A stretch of 38,587 nt of DNA from Pseudomonadota bacterium (GTDB lineage Bacteria > Pseudomonadota > Alphaproteobacteria > Puniceispirillales > UBA1172): NCBI GenBank assembly GCA_027593125.1, contig JAQCJL010000007.1, positions 1 through 38,587 on the forward strand, read 5' to 3'. This document shows, in pieces, positions 1,183 to 28,355 of the stretch (its first letter is position 1; every line of letters begins with the position of its first letter). The notes below the pieces were generated by a model. That model searched no databases, was not told where the DNA came from, and worked only from the letters and a program-made list of their open reading frames with translations. Both the position numbers and the translations under genes were made by a program.

Positions 1183-2676
1183 TTAGTTGTTTAGTGGGAA
1201 ATTAAACTGTGCGCCTGAACGGATGCCGGTTGGCCAACGTGAGGTGATGGTCTTAAGACGAGTATAAAACCGTACACCTTCCATCCCATAGGTGCCATGA
1301 TCCCCAAACAATGACCGCTTCCAGCCACCAAAAGAGTGATAAGCCACGGGAACAGGAATAGGCACATTAATCCCAACCATGCCAATTTCAATCTGATCCG
1401 CAAAACTGCGAGCGGCATCACCATCGCGGGTAAAGATCGCGGTTCCGTTCCCGAACTCATGCGCATTGATCATGGATACCGCCTGATTATAGTCATCCGC
1501 GCGAACCACACTTAGCACTGGACCAAAGATTTCTTCCTGATAAATGGTCATATCCGTGGTCACATGATCAAACATCGTACCACCAACAAAATACCCATTT
1601 TCGTAACCTTGGAGTGAGAAGTCGCGGCCATCAACCAGCAACTTAGCACCTTCTTCAACCCCTTTGTTGATATAGCCAAGCACCTTATCGCGATGCTGAG
1701 CTGTGACAACAGGGCCCATCTCGGCATCAGGATCATTCCAAGGCCCAATCTTAATATTTGAAACCCGTGGAGCAAGTTTTTCAACCAAACGGTCTGCGGT
1801 ATCCTGACCAACAGGAACAGCAACCGAAATAGCCATACAGCGTTCGCCAGCTGAACCGAAACCTGCCCCCATCAGGGCATCCACCGCTTGGTCCATATCC
1901 GCATCAGGCATGATAACCATATGATTCTTAGCGCCGCCCAAGGCCTGAACCCTTTTGCCGTTTGCCGTACCAGTTTGGTAAACATATTCCGCAATTGGTG
2001 TTGAGCCAACAAAGCTAACCGCCTTGATAGAAGGATGATGAAGAATGGCATCAACCGCTGGTTTTCCACCATTAACAATATTAAGCACCCCTTCAGGAAG
2101 TCCGGCCTGATGCATCAATTCTAGGATCATTTGTGGTGCTGCTGGATCACGTTCTGAGGGTTTAAGAATAAAGGTATTGCCGCATGCAATCGCCATCGGA
2201 AACATCCACATCGGAACCATGGCCGGAAAGTTAAAAGGGGTTATCCCTGCAACAACACCAAGCGGTTGGCGATCTGAATAACTGTCAATGGCTGGACCAA
2301 CATTACGTGTATAGTCGCCGCGCAAAAGATGCGGAATGCCGCAAGCAAACTCAACCACTTCAATGCCGCGGATGACCTCACCTCTGGCATCTTCAAGGGT
2401 CTTGCCATGCTGGGTGCTGATAGCTTCTGCCACTTTATCCAAATTGGCTTCTAGCAGTTCCTTATACTTGAACATGACTCGCGCTCTTTTTAAAGGAGGC
2501 GTATTAGCCCATTTTGGCAGGGCATCTAGCGCTGCCGCAACAGCTTGTTCTACCCCTGCTTCACCCGACAAGGTGACTTCGGCGATTTGCTCACCTGTCG
2601 CAGGATTAAAAATAGGCTGGCGACCCAGCTCACCTTCAACAGGCTTATTGTTAATGATATTTTGATAAATGGTCAT
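1183..2676 (-). CDS. mmsA: Methylmalonate-semialdehyde dehydrogenase (CoA-acylating)
   Basis: This enzyme oxidises methylmalonate semialdehyde (or malonate semialdehyde) with NAD+ and CoA to propionyl-CoA (or acetyl-CoA). It is the last dedicated step of valine catabolism and is also used for inositol and thymine breakdown. The 497 residues cover the full aldehyde dehydrogenase fold. The nucleotide-binding FVGSTP lies near 222-227 and the catalytic Cys280 sits in GERCMAIS. The segment GGAKNH (247-252) lacks the glutamate general base of ordinary aldehyde dehydrogenases, which is the mark of the CoA-dependent MmsA/IolA branch. It lies 62 bases downstream of an Lrp-family regulator on the same strand, which probably controls it. 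Its propionyl-CoA product fits the mutase genes at 7.7-11.6 kb. Confidence 0.95.
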   Translation of the reverse strand: MTIYQNIINNKPVEGELGRQPIFNPATGEQIAEVTLSGEAGVEQAVAAALDALPKWANTPPLKRARVMFKYKELLEANLDKVAEAISTQHGKTLEDARGEVIRGIEVVEFACGIPHLLRGDYTRNVGPAIDSYSDRQPLGVVAGITPFNFPAMVPMWMFPMAIACGNTFILKPSERDPAAPQMILELMHQAGLPEGVLNIVNGGKPAVDAILHHPSIKAVSFVGSTPIAEYVYQTGTANGKRVQALGGAKNHMVIMPDADMDQAVDALMGAGFGSAGERCMAISVAVPVGQDTADRLVEKLAPRVSNIKIGPWNDPDAEMGPVVTAQHRDKVLGYINKGVEEGAKLLVDGRDFSLQGYENGYFVGGTMFDHVTTDMTIYQEEIFGPVLSVVRADDYNQAVSMINAHEFGNGTAIFTRDGDAARSFADQIEIGMVGINVPIPVPVAYHSFGGWKRSLFGDHGTYGMEGVRFYTRLKTITSRWPTGIRSGAQFNFPLNN

Positions 2677-3259: not shown

Positions 3260-4132
3260 TTATTTTCCTAATGCAAGGGTTTTGGCAAAAGTTTTAGCAA
3301 GGAAAGGATAAAATCCCGGCCCCTCTTTTTGGCTTTTATTCTCCGCAAGAAATCGGCGATTCCAGTTGCGCCTTAGGGTTAAGGCTTTTCTCATCTGATG
3401 CTGTTGGTAAGGAGGCAAATCTGGCCATGTGTTGAGGGCATTAAGCATCTGCCGATATGACCTATCAATCTGGTGGCTAAACCCATGGCTAGCAGTAACA
3501 CTCGTTTTGCTAAGATAAAGCAAATATGTTGCCTTATCCACAAGTGGCGCAGCTTTCCCATAAGCACCCAGAACCACCATAGCATGAAAAACATCCTGTG
3601 CTGGCTGATTGATAAAAAGAGGGCTGTCACTGCGCCGCATGACTGGGTGAAAAGACCCAGGCCAGCGTCCAAAATCTTGCACTCTTAACTGGCTTTGCCC
3701 TTCACCCAGAACCAGCACCTTATCCCCTTGAGCTGACCTGATTTCTGTCTTACCAAAAGCCAACCCATGTCGAGACACCAGCGGCATGAGCGCGTCCAAA
3801 TAACCTTCTTGCCAAGCATCATCTGCATCAAGAAAGGCCAGATACTGGCCAGAAGCGGCAAGGATACCGCGATTTCGAGCAGGCCCCGGCCCTGTGCCCC
3901 GCCTTAAACACGGACATATTGTCACCTGAGGCCACATATTTACTGCCCAGCTATAATCCCGACCATCATCCACCGATAGCACAATTTCCAGATCATCCTG
4001 CCGCCAGCCTTGATGAACAATGCTGTTAATCGCCCGGCGCAAACTTGTTTCTGCCTGAAAACAAGGGATGATGACGCTAAGCAAAGGCGCCCGAGTTATA
4101 CGAATTGGTAATAGTTTGTTAATACTTTTCAC
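3260..4132 (-). CDS. Family 2 glycosyltransferase
   Basis: The 290-residue product has the GT-A nucleotide-sugar transferase fold. SVIIPCFQAETSLRRAINSI lies near the N-terminus, the VDDG motif follows at about 54-57, and FLDADDAW near 95-102 carries the metal-binding DxD. It probably transfers a sugar to a cell-surface glycan or protein on the cytoplasmic side; donor and acceptor are unknown. The start used here is a GTG at 4132 with no clear ribosome site, so the true start could be slightly internal. No other polysaccharide genes adjoin it. Lrp lies 47 bases downstream on the same strand. A palindromic CtrA-type site lies 40-55 bases upstream and could act on this gene or on the divergent transcript. 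Confidence 0.88.
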   Translation of the reverse strand: MKSINKLLPIRITRAPLLSVIIPCFQAETSLRRAINSIVHQGWRQDDLEIVLSVDDGRDYSWAVNMWPQVTICPCLRRGTGPGPARNRGILAASGQYLAFLDADDAWQEGYLDALMPLVSRHGLAFGKTEIRSAQGDKVLVLGEGQSQLRVQDFGRWPGSFHPVMRRSDSPLFINQPAQDVFHAMVVLGAYGKAAPLVDKATYLLYLSKTSVTASHGFSHQIDRSYRQMLNALNTWPDLPPYQQHQMRKALTLRRNWNRRFLAENKSQKEGPGFYPFLAKTFAKTLALGK

Positions 4133-4172: not shown

Positions 4173-4188
4173 TTAACCTTTTGTTAAC
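4173..4188. promoter_or_regulatory. CtrA-type binding site (TTAA-N7-TTAAC)
   Basis: The sequence TTAACCTTTTGTTAAC matches the full CtrA consensus TTAA-N7-TTAAC exactly. It is also palindromic, so it matches on both strands. It is part of a tandem TTGTTAAC repeat with an 11-base period (4170-4177 and 4181-4188), one helical turn. It lies between the glycosyltransferase reading left and the hairpin and methyltransferase reading right. Confidence 0.5.
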
Positions 4189-4199
4189 ATATTTATGCG

Positions 4200-4257
4200 A
4201 TAACAATCATATTGATCCTCCCCAACTGCACCACCATTTTTGGTGGTGCTTTTTTTT
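4200..4257 (+). ncRNA. Candidate short RNA or transcribed leader ending in a terminator
   Basis: A strong terminator at 4228-4257 has no plus-strand gene in front of it, so something short must be transcribed into it. The 5' end here is a guess. The stretch includes an unpaired CCTCCCC at 4217-4223, complementary to a Shine-Dalgarno sequence, just before the hairpin. Alphaproteobacterial CcsR ('cuckoo') sRNAs carry exposed anti-Shine-Dalgarno motifs rich in CUCCUCCC, so the layout is suggestive. The alternative is an attenuated leader of the methyltransferase gene. Confidence 0.35.
4228..4257 (+). terminator. Rho-independent terminator ahead of the methyltransferase gene
   Basis: A perfect 9-bp stem, GCACCACCA (4228-4236) with TGGTGGTGC (4241-4249), closes a TTTT loop and is followed by eight T residues (4250-4257). 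The T tract exists only in the plus direction. It ends 21 bases before the methyltransferase start at 4279. Confidence 0.8.
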
Positions 4258-4278
4258 GGTTCTGGCTATTGTGTCGCC

Positions 4279-5223
4279 ATGACACAGCATTTTGACTCAT
4301 CTCAACATCCTCATCATGCGCCACTAATCCTTACACCACAAGGGTGGCATGACTATCGGCTTTTGGATAGTGGACATGGACGAAAGCTTGAAGAAGTAGG
4401 CGGTTATCGTTTTATTCGCCCTGAACCACAGGCTTTCTGGGCACCACATTTGCCATCACAGGACTGGGCCGAACCAGCAGGGGTATTCGTTAGTGGGTCG
4501 CGTGATCAGGATGAAGGCGGCAAATGGGAGTTATCACCATCATTGCCTGCCGAGTGGTCTGTCAATTTTGAGGATATCCGTTTTCTTGCGATGCCGACCC
4601 CCTTTCGGCATTTTGGCTTCTTTCCCGAACAATCTCGGCATTGGCAATGGTGCGCTGATCTGATCAAAGCGCGAATTAAGGCCACGGGCACACGCCCCCT
4701 TATGCTCAATCTGTTTGGTTATACCGGGGTAGCCAGCCTTCATGCCGCCAAAGCCGGCGCTGAGGTGACCCATGTGGATTCGTCCAAAAAGGCTATTGCC
4801 CAAGGGTTTGCGAATCGTGATCATGCTGAGATGACCGACGCACCCATTCGCTATATTACTGAGGATGCGCGCAGTTTTGTTGCGCGTGAACTGCGTCGAG
4901 GGCGGCGCTATGATGGTATTATTCTTGACCCCCCAAAATATGGGCGCGGGGCAAAAGGTGAGATTTGGCGTCTCGAAGATGATCTGGCTGATTTGCTTGC
5001 GGCCATTAAACCTTTGCTTTCGGATCAGCCTCTTTTTATGGTGCTGACATCATATGCGATCAGAGCCAGTTTTCTGTCCCTGCATCATCTCATGGCGGAT
5101 ACGCTTCAGGATTTGGGCGGCTTTGTTTCCTCAGGGGAATTGGCAATTGCTGAGGATCGCCCTCACGGTCGCTGCCTAGGACAAGCCATTTTCTCACGCT
5201 GGCAAGCAGAAACCACGCTCTGA
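4279..5223 (+). CDS. RlmI/RlmK-like SAM-dependent methyltransferase
   Basis: This is a class I methyltransferase of the large-subunit rRNA m5C/m7G type (RlmI/RlmK-like). The SAM-binding motif is LNLFGYTGVASLHAAKAG with the acidic VDSS after the next strand, and the catalytic-region motif is ILDPPKYGRG. The exact rRNA target is not known. It lacks the N-terminal PUA domain of E. coli RlmI. An in-frame ATG at 4240 lies inside the upstream terminator hairpin, so I place the start at the next ATG, 4279, giving 314 residues. There is no clear ribosome site before it, so it may be translated from a very short leader. It is convergent with the TrmH-type methyltransferase, 22 bases away. Confidence 0.85.
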   Translation: MTQHFDSSQHPHHAPLILTPQGWHDYRLLDSGHGRKLEEVGGYRFIRPEPQAFWAPHLPSQDWAEPAGVFVSGSRDQDEGGKWELSPSLPAEWSVNFEDIRFLAMPTPFRHFGFFPEQSRHWQWCADLIKARIKATGTRPLMLNLFGYTGVASLHAAKAGAEVTHVDSSKKAIAQGFANRDHAEMTDAPIRYITEDARSFVARELRRGRRYDGIILDPPKYGRGAKGEIWRLEDDLADLLAAIKPLLSDQPLFMVLTSYAIRASFLSLHHLMADTLQDLGGFVSSGELAIAEDRPHGRCLGQAIFSRWQAETTL

Positions 5224-15306: not shown

Positions 15307-15337
15307 TTTTTCCCTGTTTTTAATAAGCCTTTAAGCA

Positions 15338-15372
15338 AGCAAAAGTTTTTTTGCTGGCGTTAAGTCTTTTTT
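15338..15372 (+). terminator. Possible weak terminator after pyrF
   Basis: AGCAAAA (15338-15344) pairs with TTTTGCT (15349-15355) around GTTT, and a T-rich stretch follows ten bases on. The stem is short and AT-rich. Confidence 0.35.
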
Positions 15373-15375
15373 AAC
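15360..15375 (+). promoter_or_regulatory. CtrA-type binding site before the double cold-shock gene
   Basis: TTAAGTCTTTTTTAAC matches TTAA-N7-TTAAC exactly. It lies about 116 bases before the cold-shock-domain gene, and TAACAT at 15386-15391 could be the -10. This leaves a 5' untranslated leader of roughly 90 bases, a length at which cold-shock mRNAs often carry regulatory structure. Confidence 0.45.
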
Positions 15376-15490
15376 TTTCTTACCATAACATACAAAGCAG
15401 ATGGTCTTGTAGTTGTCGCCATTAAATTAGTGATCGTTCTGTCATCATCAAGCGAAACATTAAAGCTGGTGTTTTGAAAGTATTTTGGAA

Positions 15491-16096
15491 ATGAATAGTA
15501 TCAACGCTTACCCCATCATTGCGAATGGGGCAGAAAGACAAAAGGGAACCGTCAAATGGTTCAGCGAACGGCTTGGCTATGGCTTTATTGAAGTTGACGG
15601 CAATGAGGTCTTTATTCACCGCACTACATTAAGCCAATTTGGCGCTAGCCGATTACTGGCTGAAGATATTGTGATGGTAACGATTACCTCATCAGCACGA
15701 GGGCAAATTGTCGATACGCTTTTTGGGATCGAACGTCTGCCAGTTGATAATAGCCTTATTGCCAGTGAACCTGCTGAGGATGAACATATCGCCTATGTGA
15801 AGTTTTTCAATGAAATGCGCGGTTATAGTTTTATCGAAGTCGAAGGTTATGATCAGGATATTTTTGTCCATTCCCGTATAATTGAACATAATGGGTTATC
15901 CACTATCTACACCAAACAGAAATTGTTGGTTACGGTTGTTCCCGGGGAAAAAGGGAATGAGATTAAAACCATCCGATTGCTAGTAGATCAGGATTCCCAA
16001 AATGAAATTCCAGATAATATAGATAACCCAGAAGATGGGCTGCCCGAACGCTATTCTGATATCGTCAGAGATGATGGTGAAACAGACGAAAGCTGA
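15491..16096 (+). CDS. Tandem cold-shock-domain RNA/DNA-binding protein
   Basis: Two CspA-like OB folds lie in about 201 residues. The first is near 14-75 (GTVKWFSERLGYGFIE, then EVFIHRTTL). The second is near 96-165 (YVKFFNEMRGYSFIEV, then DIFVHSRII). RNP1 is well kept in domain one (KWFSERLGYGFI) and slightly altered in domain two (YSFI). An acidic C-terminal tail follows. Double-domain cold-shock proteins such as Caulobacter CspC/CspD are typical of alphaproteobacteria. They act as RNA chaperones in stationary phase or cold. I use ATG 15491; a TTG at 15485 is also in frame. Regulation by a CtrA-type site at 15360-15375 is possible. Confidence 0.92.
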   Translation: MNSINAYPIIANGAERQKGTVKWFSERLGYGFIEVDGNEVFIHRTTLSQFGASRLLAEDIVMVTITSSARGQIVDTLFGIERLPVDNSLIASEPAEDEHIAYVKFFNEMRGYSFIEVEGYDQDIFVHSRIIEHNGLSTIYTKQKLLVTVVPGEKGNEIKTIRLLVDQDSQNEIPDNIDNPEDGLPERYSDIVRDDGETDES

Positions 16097-27389: not shown

Positions 27390-28349
27390 CTATGTTTTCC
27401 TTTTGTGATAGAGAATGCGGCCGATCGCATTAAGCAAAATCTGCGCCGCTAGCGTGGTGGTCGAACCTGTATGATCATAATCTGGTGCGACCTCAACCAA
27501 ATCCATGCCAACAACCGTATTTCGGCGCGCCAGCCCATCCAGCAATTCCAACACCTCATAATAAAGAAAGCCACCATGGCTAGGCGTGCCAGTCCCTGGT
27601 GCAATCGAAGGATCGAAACCGTCAATGTCTATAGTAATGTATACTCGGCCTTCGGGAATTCGCGCCAGCAATGCCTCAACCCCAAGGGCGCGAGCCTGCC
27701 TGACCGAAAGAATATCTGACCCCATTGTCCGCGCATCTTCATACCCATCACGAGCCGTTGAGGAAACATTACGGATCCCGACCTGGGTTAGGCCTGTGAC
27801 ATAGAGTTTTTCAGCAGCACGGCGCATAGGATTGCCATGCCCTGCAGTTACCCCATGGCGGCTGTCAACAAAATCTAAATGAGCGTCAATCTGAACAAGA
27901 TGAAAAGGATCCTGATCACTAAAGGCATTTATCACCGGAATATTGACCGAATGGTCACCGCCTAAGACCACGGGCATTGCCCCTGCCTTTAAGATGGCGC
28001 GGACACCATATTCTATGTTGGCGTGGCTTTGCACGGTATCTGTATGAATGATATCCGCATCACCAATATCAACGATGCGGGTGTTTTGACTTTCTAGATA
28101 GGTGATATCATCTTCATGATCATACGCGCCACTATGACCAAAGGAAAACAACGTTGATGCCTCGCGGATTCCACGTGGGCCGAATCGAGCACCTGCCCTA
28201 AACTGGGTCCCAAAATCAAATGGTGCACCCAAGACAGCAACATCAGCATCAATAGCATCCCAATTTTCAACATAAGGGTATTTGCCAAAACTGCATAAAC
28301 CAACAAATGGCAAATTTAGCCGACCCTTTTCATAACCATGGCCACTCAT
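27390..28349 (-). CDS. Agmatinase-family ureohydrolase (agmatinase or guanidino-acid hydrolase)
   Basis: The enzyme should hydrolyse a guanidino group to urea plus an amine. All manganese motifs of the arginase/agmatinase fold are intact: GGDHSVNIPV, DAHLDFVD and TIDIDGFDPSIAPGTGTP. Length is normal (319 residues from the chosen start). Family members act on agmatine, 4-guanidinobutyrate, 3-guanidinopropionate or related acids, and sequence alone does not separate them. SHGG after the GTGTP loop, where agmatinases often have a Glu, hints at a different side-chain preference. I start it at ATG 28349 because GGAGG (28356-28360) is six bases upstream; the ATG at 28355 touches that site. It lies between an HlyD relic and the M24-fold gene. 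Confidence 0.92.
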   Translation of the reverse strand: MSGHGYEKGRLNLPFVGLCSFGKYPYVENWDAIDADVAVLGAPFDFGTQFRAGARFGPRGIREASTLFSFGHSGAYDHEDDITYLESQNTRIVDIGDADIIHTDTVQSHANIEYGVRAILKAGAMPVVLGGDHSVNIPVINAFSDQDPFHLVQIDAHLDFVDSRHGVTAGHGNPMRRAAEKLYVTGLTQVGIRNVSSTARDGYEDARTMGSDILSVRQARALGVEALLARIPEGRVYITIDIDGFDPSIAPGTGTPSHGGFLYYEVLELLDGLARRNTVVGMDLVEVAPDYDHTGSTTTLAAQILLNAIGRILYHKRKT

Positions 28350-28355
28350 CCACAT

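Follow-up and report, generated by a model that had tools for sequence, protein, structure and literature searches.

A conserved candidate small-RNA gene with an alphaR8-like anti-Shine-Dalgarno sequence and a CtrA-type promoter motif in a SAR116 family

Judged from its sequence and that of its relatives, the intergenic segment analyzed here is likely to be a small-RNA gene, whose product would be a ~47-nt anti-Shine-Dalgarno RNA, an alphaR8-like sibling expressed from a CtrA-type promoter. The segment lies in the window, the whole 38,587-nucleotide stretch of DNA that was analyzed, which comes from a 1.99-Mb draft genome whose named relatives are SAR116. The comparison covered its family (f1, 12 genomes) and more than 120 other genomes of the same order. 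An earlier note on this DNA had read the segment as possibly a small RNA that is driven by a CtrA-type site, ends at a terminator, and exposes a sequence able to pair with Shine-Dalgarno sequences; conservation of box, seed, and hairpin supports that reading, with CtrA as the putative activator. The features, in order along the window, are as follows.

3260 to 4132, minus strand: divergently oriented gene for a family-2 glycosyltransferase; relatives G004 and G009 do not have it
4173 to 4187, plus strand: CtrA-type full motif TTAA-N7-TTAA (TTAACCTTTTGTTAA), half-sites invariant and spacer variable in 7 representatives
4192 to 4204, plus strand: putative −10-like region, weakly conserved (T4192, T4196, G4197, and A4200) and without a consensus −10
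4211 to 4257, plus strand: predicted small RNA of ~47 nt, its 5′ end placed at the onset of invariance and its 3′ end at the terminator
4211 to 4227, plus strand: AUUGAUCCUCCCCAACU, invariant and single-stranded, containing the anti-Shine-Dalgarno core CCUCCCC (4217-4223); mostly unpaired in the folds of 12 genomes
4228 to 4257, plus strand: intrinsic terminator with stem 4228-4236/4241-4249, loop 4237-4240, and T8 at 4250-4257, supported by the fold and by compensatory changes
4267 to 4272, plus strand: −10-like TATTGT 3′ of the terminator, the methyltransferase gene's own predicted promoter, with TAT-N-N-T in 12/12 genomes
4279 to 5223, plus strand: gene for an Rlm-type class I SAM methyltransferase, apparently without a leader

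The palindromic TTAA-N7-TTAAC site described in the earlier note is present to the base, as TTAACCTTTTGTTAAC at 4173-4188 on the plus strand. The terminator stem begins 40 bases after the box, at 4228, and no plus-strand gene precedes it, as had been claimed: the nearest upstream gene-sized plus-strand ORF is at 217-1128, with minus-strand genes between. In an ungapped alignment of seven representative relatives, all eight columns of the two TTAA half-sites were invariant and the box-to-seed offset was fixed, with identity at 49% in the box spacer, 55% between box and seed, and 44% in the upstream DNA. Fixed half-sites around a free spacer are the pattern expected from a bound dyad. Elsewhere in the family, the box was shifted by 3 nt and changed at one base in G011 and was lost in G004. 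The TTAA motif carries little weight on its own: genome-wide, TTAA-N7-TTAAC shows no over-representation (29 matches versus 37 for the reversed pattern), and the window holds three matches versus 0.8 expected. Two further TTAA-N7-TTAA sites in the window, 15320-15334 and 15360-15374, are spaced 40 bp apart; they lie upstream of a possible CtrA target, a gene at ~15485-16096 that encodes two cold-shock-like domains.

Among the proteins of the genome are a CtrA-like regulator (G000:C123) and, encoded nearby, a ChpT-like protein; both were identified by reading the proteins rather than with a curated model. The contig that carries the regulator also has TTAACAAACCGTTAAC, next to the ChpT-like gene, and a TTAA-N7-TTAAC box lies upstream of an flbD-like gene, its identity likewise read from the protein. 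We infer CtrA control of the predicted small RNA from the motif, its position, and the presence of the CtrA gene. In Caulobacter, the full motif of CtrA-activated promoters starts near −35, and that of ctrA P2 is at −39 (PMC4287350). The first invariant base in the window, 4211, is 38 nt past the first base of the box; since this distance fits the Caulobacter geometry, transcription is most simply modeled as starting at 4211, which gives an RNA of ~47 nt. The putative promoter shows no clear −10 consensus.

The element was present in all 12 family genomes, ATTGATCCTCCCCAACT was invariant at 17/17 positions in the seven representatives, and exact GATCCTCCCCAACTG occurred once per genome in 11 of the 12. 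The CCTCCCC proposed to be exposed is at 4217-4223 and, like most of the seed, was predicted to be largely unpaired in the folds of all 12 family genomes. Downstream, the terminator hairpin comprises 9 bp, and the fold of 4195-4260 reached −19.5 kcal/mol (z = −3.7). Stem pairing survives double changes at three pairs: A-T/G-C in G004, C-G/T-A in G009, and, at the ninth pair, A-T/T-A/C-G. The R1 covariance model, built on seed and hairpin together, recovered the element in 12/12 family genomes with E-values, rough as such values are, of 5e-11 to 1e-15. Outside the family, the sole R1 match among 136 genomes of the order, in G090, was without the seed and was rejected; a search for the exact seed in other families of the order returned unrelated near-matches only. 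Exact copies of the element were not found on viral contigs. Simple conservation counts are inflated by the relatedness of the genomes, though the flanks are nearly unalignable. The earlier note had suggested looking for covariation and conservation in relatives, and box, seed, and hairpin proved to be conserved, the hairpin with compensatory changes. Given the invariant seed, fixed half-sites, and covarying hairpin, the 12-genome comparison argues for a real small-RNA gene.

One relative, G004, has lost the glycosyltransferase gene, the box, and GATCCT, and keeps CCCCAACT with a compensated hairpin. Its element may be a decaying copy. Because the hairpin was kept with a compensatory change while the box and half of the seed are gone, the hairpin may have a role of its own in that genome. 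Two candidate products other than the RNA were set aside: a short ORF, ATG-CGA-TAA at 4195, is upstream of the predicted start and is not kept in relatives, and a minus-strand antisense ORF following GGGGAGG showed no conservation in relatives.

The closest known counterpart is alphaR8 (MmgR, SisA-D), which carries a terminator and a single-stranded anti-Shine-Dalgarno sequence, UUUCCUCCCU, 3′ of a weak hairpin; several siblings with independent promoters occur per genome (PMC12559287). We defined the canonical alphaR8 pattern as TTTCCTCCCT followed by a T-run. Under this strict pattern, canonical genes were detected in 10 of the 12 family genomes and also in other families of the order. The copy in the genome studied here (G000:C162:57953) lies between gluQ-like and moaA-like genes, in a locus (L145:1424-1501, that is, G000:C162:57923-58000) that has a TTGAC-type promoter and was unmatched by Rfam. 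Like alphaR8, the window element is alphaproteobacterial and has a single-stranded anti-Shine-Dalgarno stretch immediately 5′ of an intrinsic terminator, and the two have in common UCCUCCC-Y-AACU abutting the stem (11/12 letters). The differences are also clear. Over the 10-mer, UUUCCUCCCU of alphaR8 and GAUCCUCCCC of the window element, the latter invariant in 11 of the 12 relatives, are identical at 7/10 positions. The window RNA would lack the weak 5′ hairpin if it starts at the predicted ~4211, and it would be ~47 nt long with a CtrA-type promoter. Moreover, alphaR8 adjoins an N-formylglutamate amidohydrolase (FGase) gene in most species, and the window element does not. In the genome studied here, the FGase genes are on contigs C115 and C55, the canonical alphaR8 copy is on neither (C162), and CCTCCC was not found near either FGase gene.

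Additional loci of this kind were found in the family. The signature CCTCCC(Y)AACT plus T-run matched 27 distinct loci, four of them in the genome studied here, versus one match for the reversed control, and siblings of intermediate sequence, such as ATAACCTCCCCAACTCGG and AGTTCCTCCCTAACT, occur in the same family. The alphaR8 covariance model scored the window element at 26.9 bits (E 0.003 within the window, with no significance at whole-genome scale), the next best score in the window being 10.5 bits. Because canonical alphaR8 and further signature loci occur in the same genomes, the element is most likely an alphaR8-like sibling; because it does not carry the defining 10-mer, we file it as alphaR8-like rather than as a member. 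On these comparisons, it probably works like alphaR8 and descends from it. The word "new" in the earlier note's possible new small RNA needs qualification: the element looks like a sibling, since diverged, of a known RNA whose canonical copy lies elsewhere in the genome.

Several related loci were observed along the way. On L167 (G000:C119), two more alphaR8-like loci of the form TTCCTCCC..AACT plus terminator are at ~1590-1630 (plus strand) and 3395-3450 (minus strand), and one has a relative in G003 (C157:8046). In G004, a closed genome of the same genus, we detected no CCTCCC-AACT-terminator locus and no alphaR8-model match, so the pattern in G004 is apparently one of concerted loss of anti-Shine-Dalgarno small RNAs. 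In a distant alphaproteobacterial genus (family f46, class genomes, L164, L165, and L166), GAGCTCCCCAACTT is accompanied by a strong terminator, another CTCCCCAACT small-RNA-like element.

The window element could instead be an anti-Shine-Dalgarno RNA unrelated to alphaR8 by descent that converged on CCUCCC before a terminator. The unconserved 10-mer, the missing 5′ hairpin, and the different promoter and neighbors would all fit such an origin, and convergence on CCUCCC is easy because anti-Shine-Dalgarno sequences are constrained by their targets. However, the likeness exceeds the anti-Shine-Dalgarno core, extending over UCCUCCC-Y-AACU at the stem (11/12), and intermediates such as AACCTCCCCAACT and GTTCCTCCCTAACT occur as siblings in the same family. 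We therefore regard convergence as unlikely; homology is likely rather than proven, given that the 10-mer is not kept and the 5′ hairpin is missing. Another reading, about equally unlikely or slightly more so, assigns the conserved box to the glycosyltransferase gene, or to chance, and has the small RNA transcribed from a constitutive promoter unrelated to the box. The palindromic box does lie between divergent genes, and in G004 the losses of the glycosyltransferase gene, of the box, and of part of the seed coincide. Against this, G009 has no glycosyltransferase gene and retains box, seed, and hairpin with their spacing unchanged, the box exactly as far from the seed, which argues that the box is independent of that gene. 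The glycosyltransferase itself diverges rapidly, with 37-53% identity in most relatives and 80% in G003; the adjoining small RNA is nearly unchanged.

The earlier note had also raised an attenuator in the leader of the methyltransferase gene that would tie rRNA modification to the cell cycle. In such a leader, transcription would start at the CtrA box, and regulated termination at 4257 would set the amount of readthrough into the gene. The methyltransferase ATG does follow the T-run by ~20 nt on the same strand in most relatives, and its position at 4279 corrects the mechanical ORF start at 4240. However, the folds contained no mutually exclusive antiterminator pairing, the terminator alone folding, and a −10-like TAT-N-N-T lies past the T-run in 12/12 genomes (9-12 nt on in 11, less regularly in G004). 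The ATG stands 6-8 nt after this box in most family genomes, as in leaderless genes, which suggests that the methyltransferase gene has its own promoter. The gene starts ~190-200 bp further downstream in two genomes, G007 and G009, in which the element is unchanged. Moreover, the single-stranded seed, dispensable for attenuation, is the most strongly conserved part, and a sibling family of seed plus terminator occurs elsewhere in the genome. With the −10-like box past the terminator and the variable gap to the gene start, attenuation is improbable, and a stand-alone small RNA of the alphaR8-like kind remains our preferred reading.

Database screens of the window returned no Rfam match above the gathering score and no tRNA or tmRNA. 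Sub-threshold Rfam matches (Hrs1 on the wrong strand, Ref84, Phe leader, and others) were dismissed as terminator look-alikes. Since canonical alphaR8 copies are also unmatched, Rfam is uninformative here. AbcR/alphar15 and NfeR1/alphar14, like the window element, have C/U-rich anti-Shine-Dalgarno motifs and terminator tails, but their motifs differ from that of the window element. The Caulobacter ncRNA CcnA was compared by description only. Encoded at the replication origin and reported to act on the 5′ UTRs of ctrA and gcrA, it is similar in being presumed CtrA-activated and in that its CCCC meets GGGG near start codons (PMC8959179). It differs in that the ctrA start region of the genome studied here pairs poorly with the window seed. 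Our literature search found no paper joining SAR116, CtrA, and a small RNA.

Predicted duplex energies for the seed were ~−19 kcal/mol for a perfect GGGGAGGAU and −11 for plain GGAGG. In the genome studied here, the starts of ctrA, chpT, and flbD paired with the seed more weakly than background, and no GGGGAGGAT-ATG target was found besides the element's own antisense; the search for GGGGAGGAT-N-ATG yielded no shared gene. Within the window, the lowest duplex energies, at starts ~28349-28355, 19389, and 22603 (all minus strand), were at chance level. Overall, the target search gave no convincing candidate.

These features suggest how the locus could work. Phosphorylated CtrA would bind TTAA-N7-TTAA at about −38 and activate transcription from ~4211, and polymerase would stop at the hairpin and T8, leaving a ~47-nt RNA of AUUGAUCCUCCCCAACU plus the terminator hairpin, its U-tail probably bound by Hfq. 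The single-stranded AUUGAUCCUCCCCAACU would then pair with purine-rich, GGGGAGG-like ribosome-binding sites on other mRNAs and block their translation when CtrA is active. As predicted from the sequence, the most likely function is thus repression of mRNAs with GGGGAGG-like ribosome-binding sites under active CtrA. We propose more tentatively, as an idea that may well turn out otherwise, that an alphaR8 duplicate had its promoter swapped and its seed retuned to GAUCCUCCCCAACU, giving a clade-specific, CtrA-driven anti-Shine-Dalgarno RNA of ~47 nt as a post-transcriptional repressor arm of the SAR116 CtrA pathway. A small RNA under a CtrA box would link a cell-cycle and motility regulator to translation control and would exemplify alphaR8 siblings gaining new inputs and seeds. 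Together with the further siblings, it would represent a family of anti-Shine-Dalgarno RNAs, each responding to its own input, in a streamlined marine bacterium of SAR116, which is among the most abundant bacterial groups of the surface ocean.
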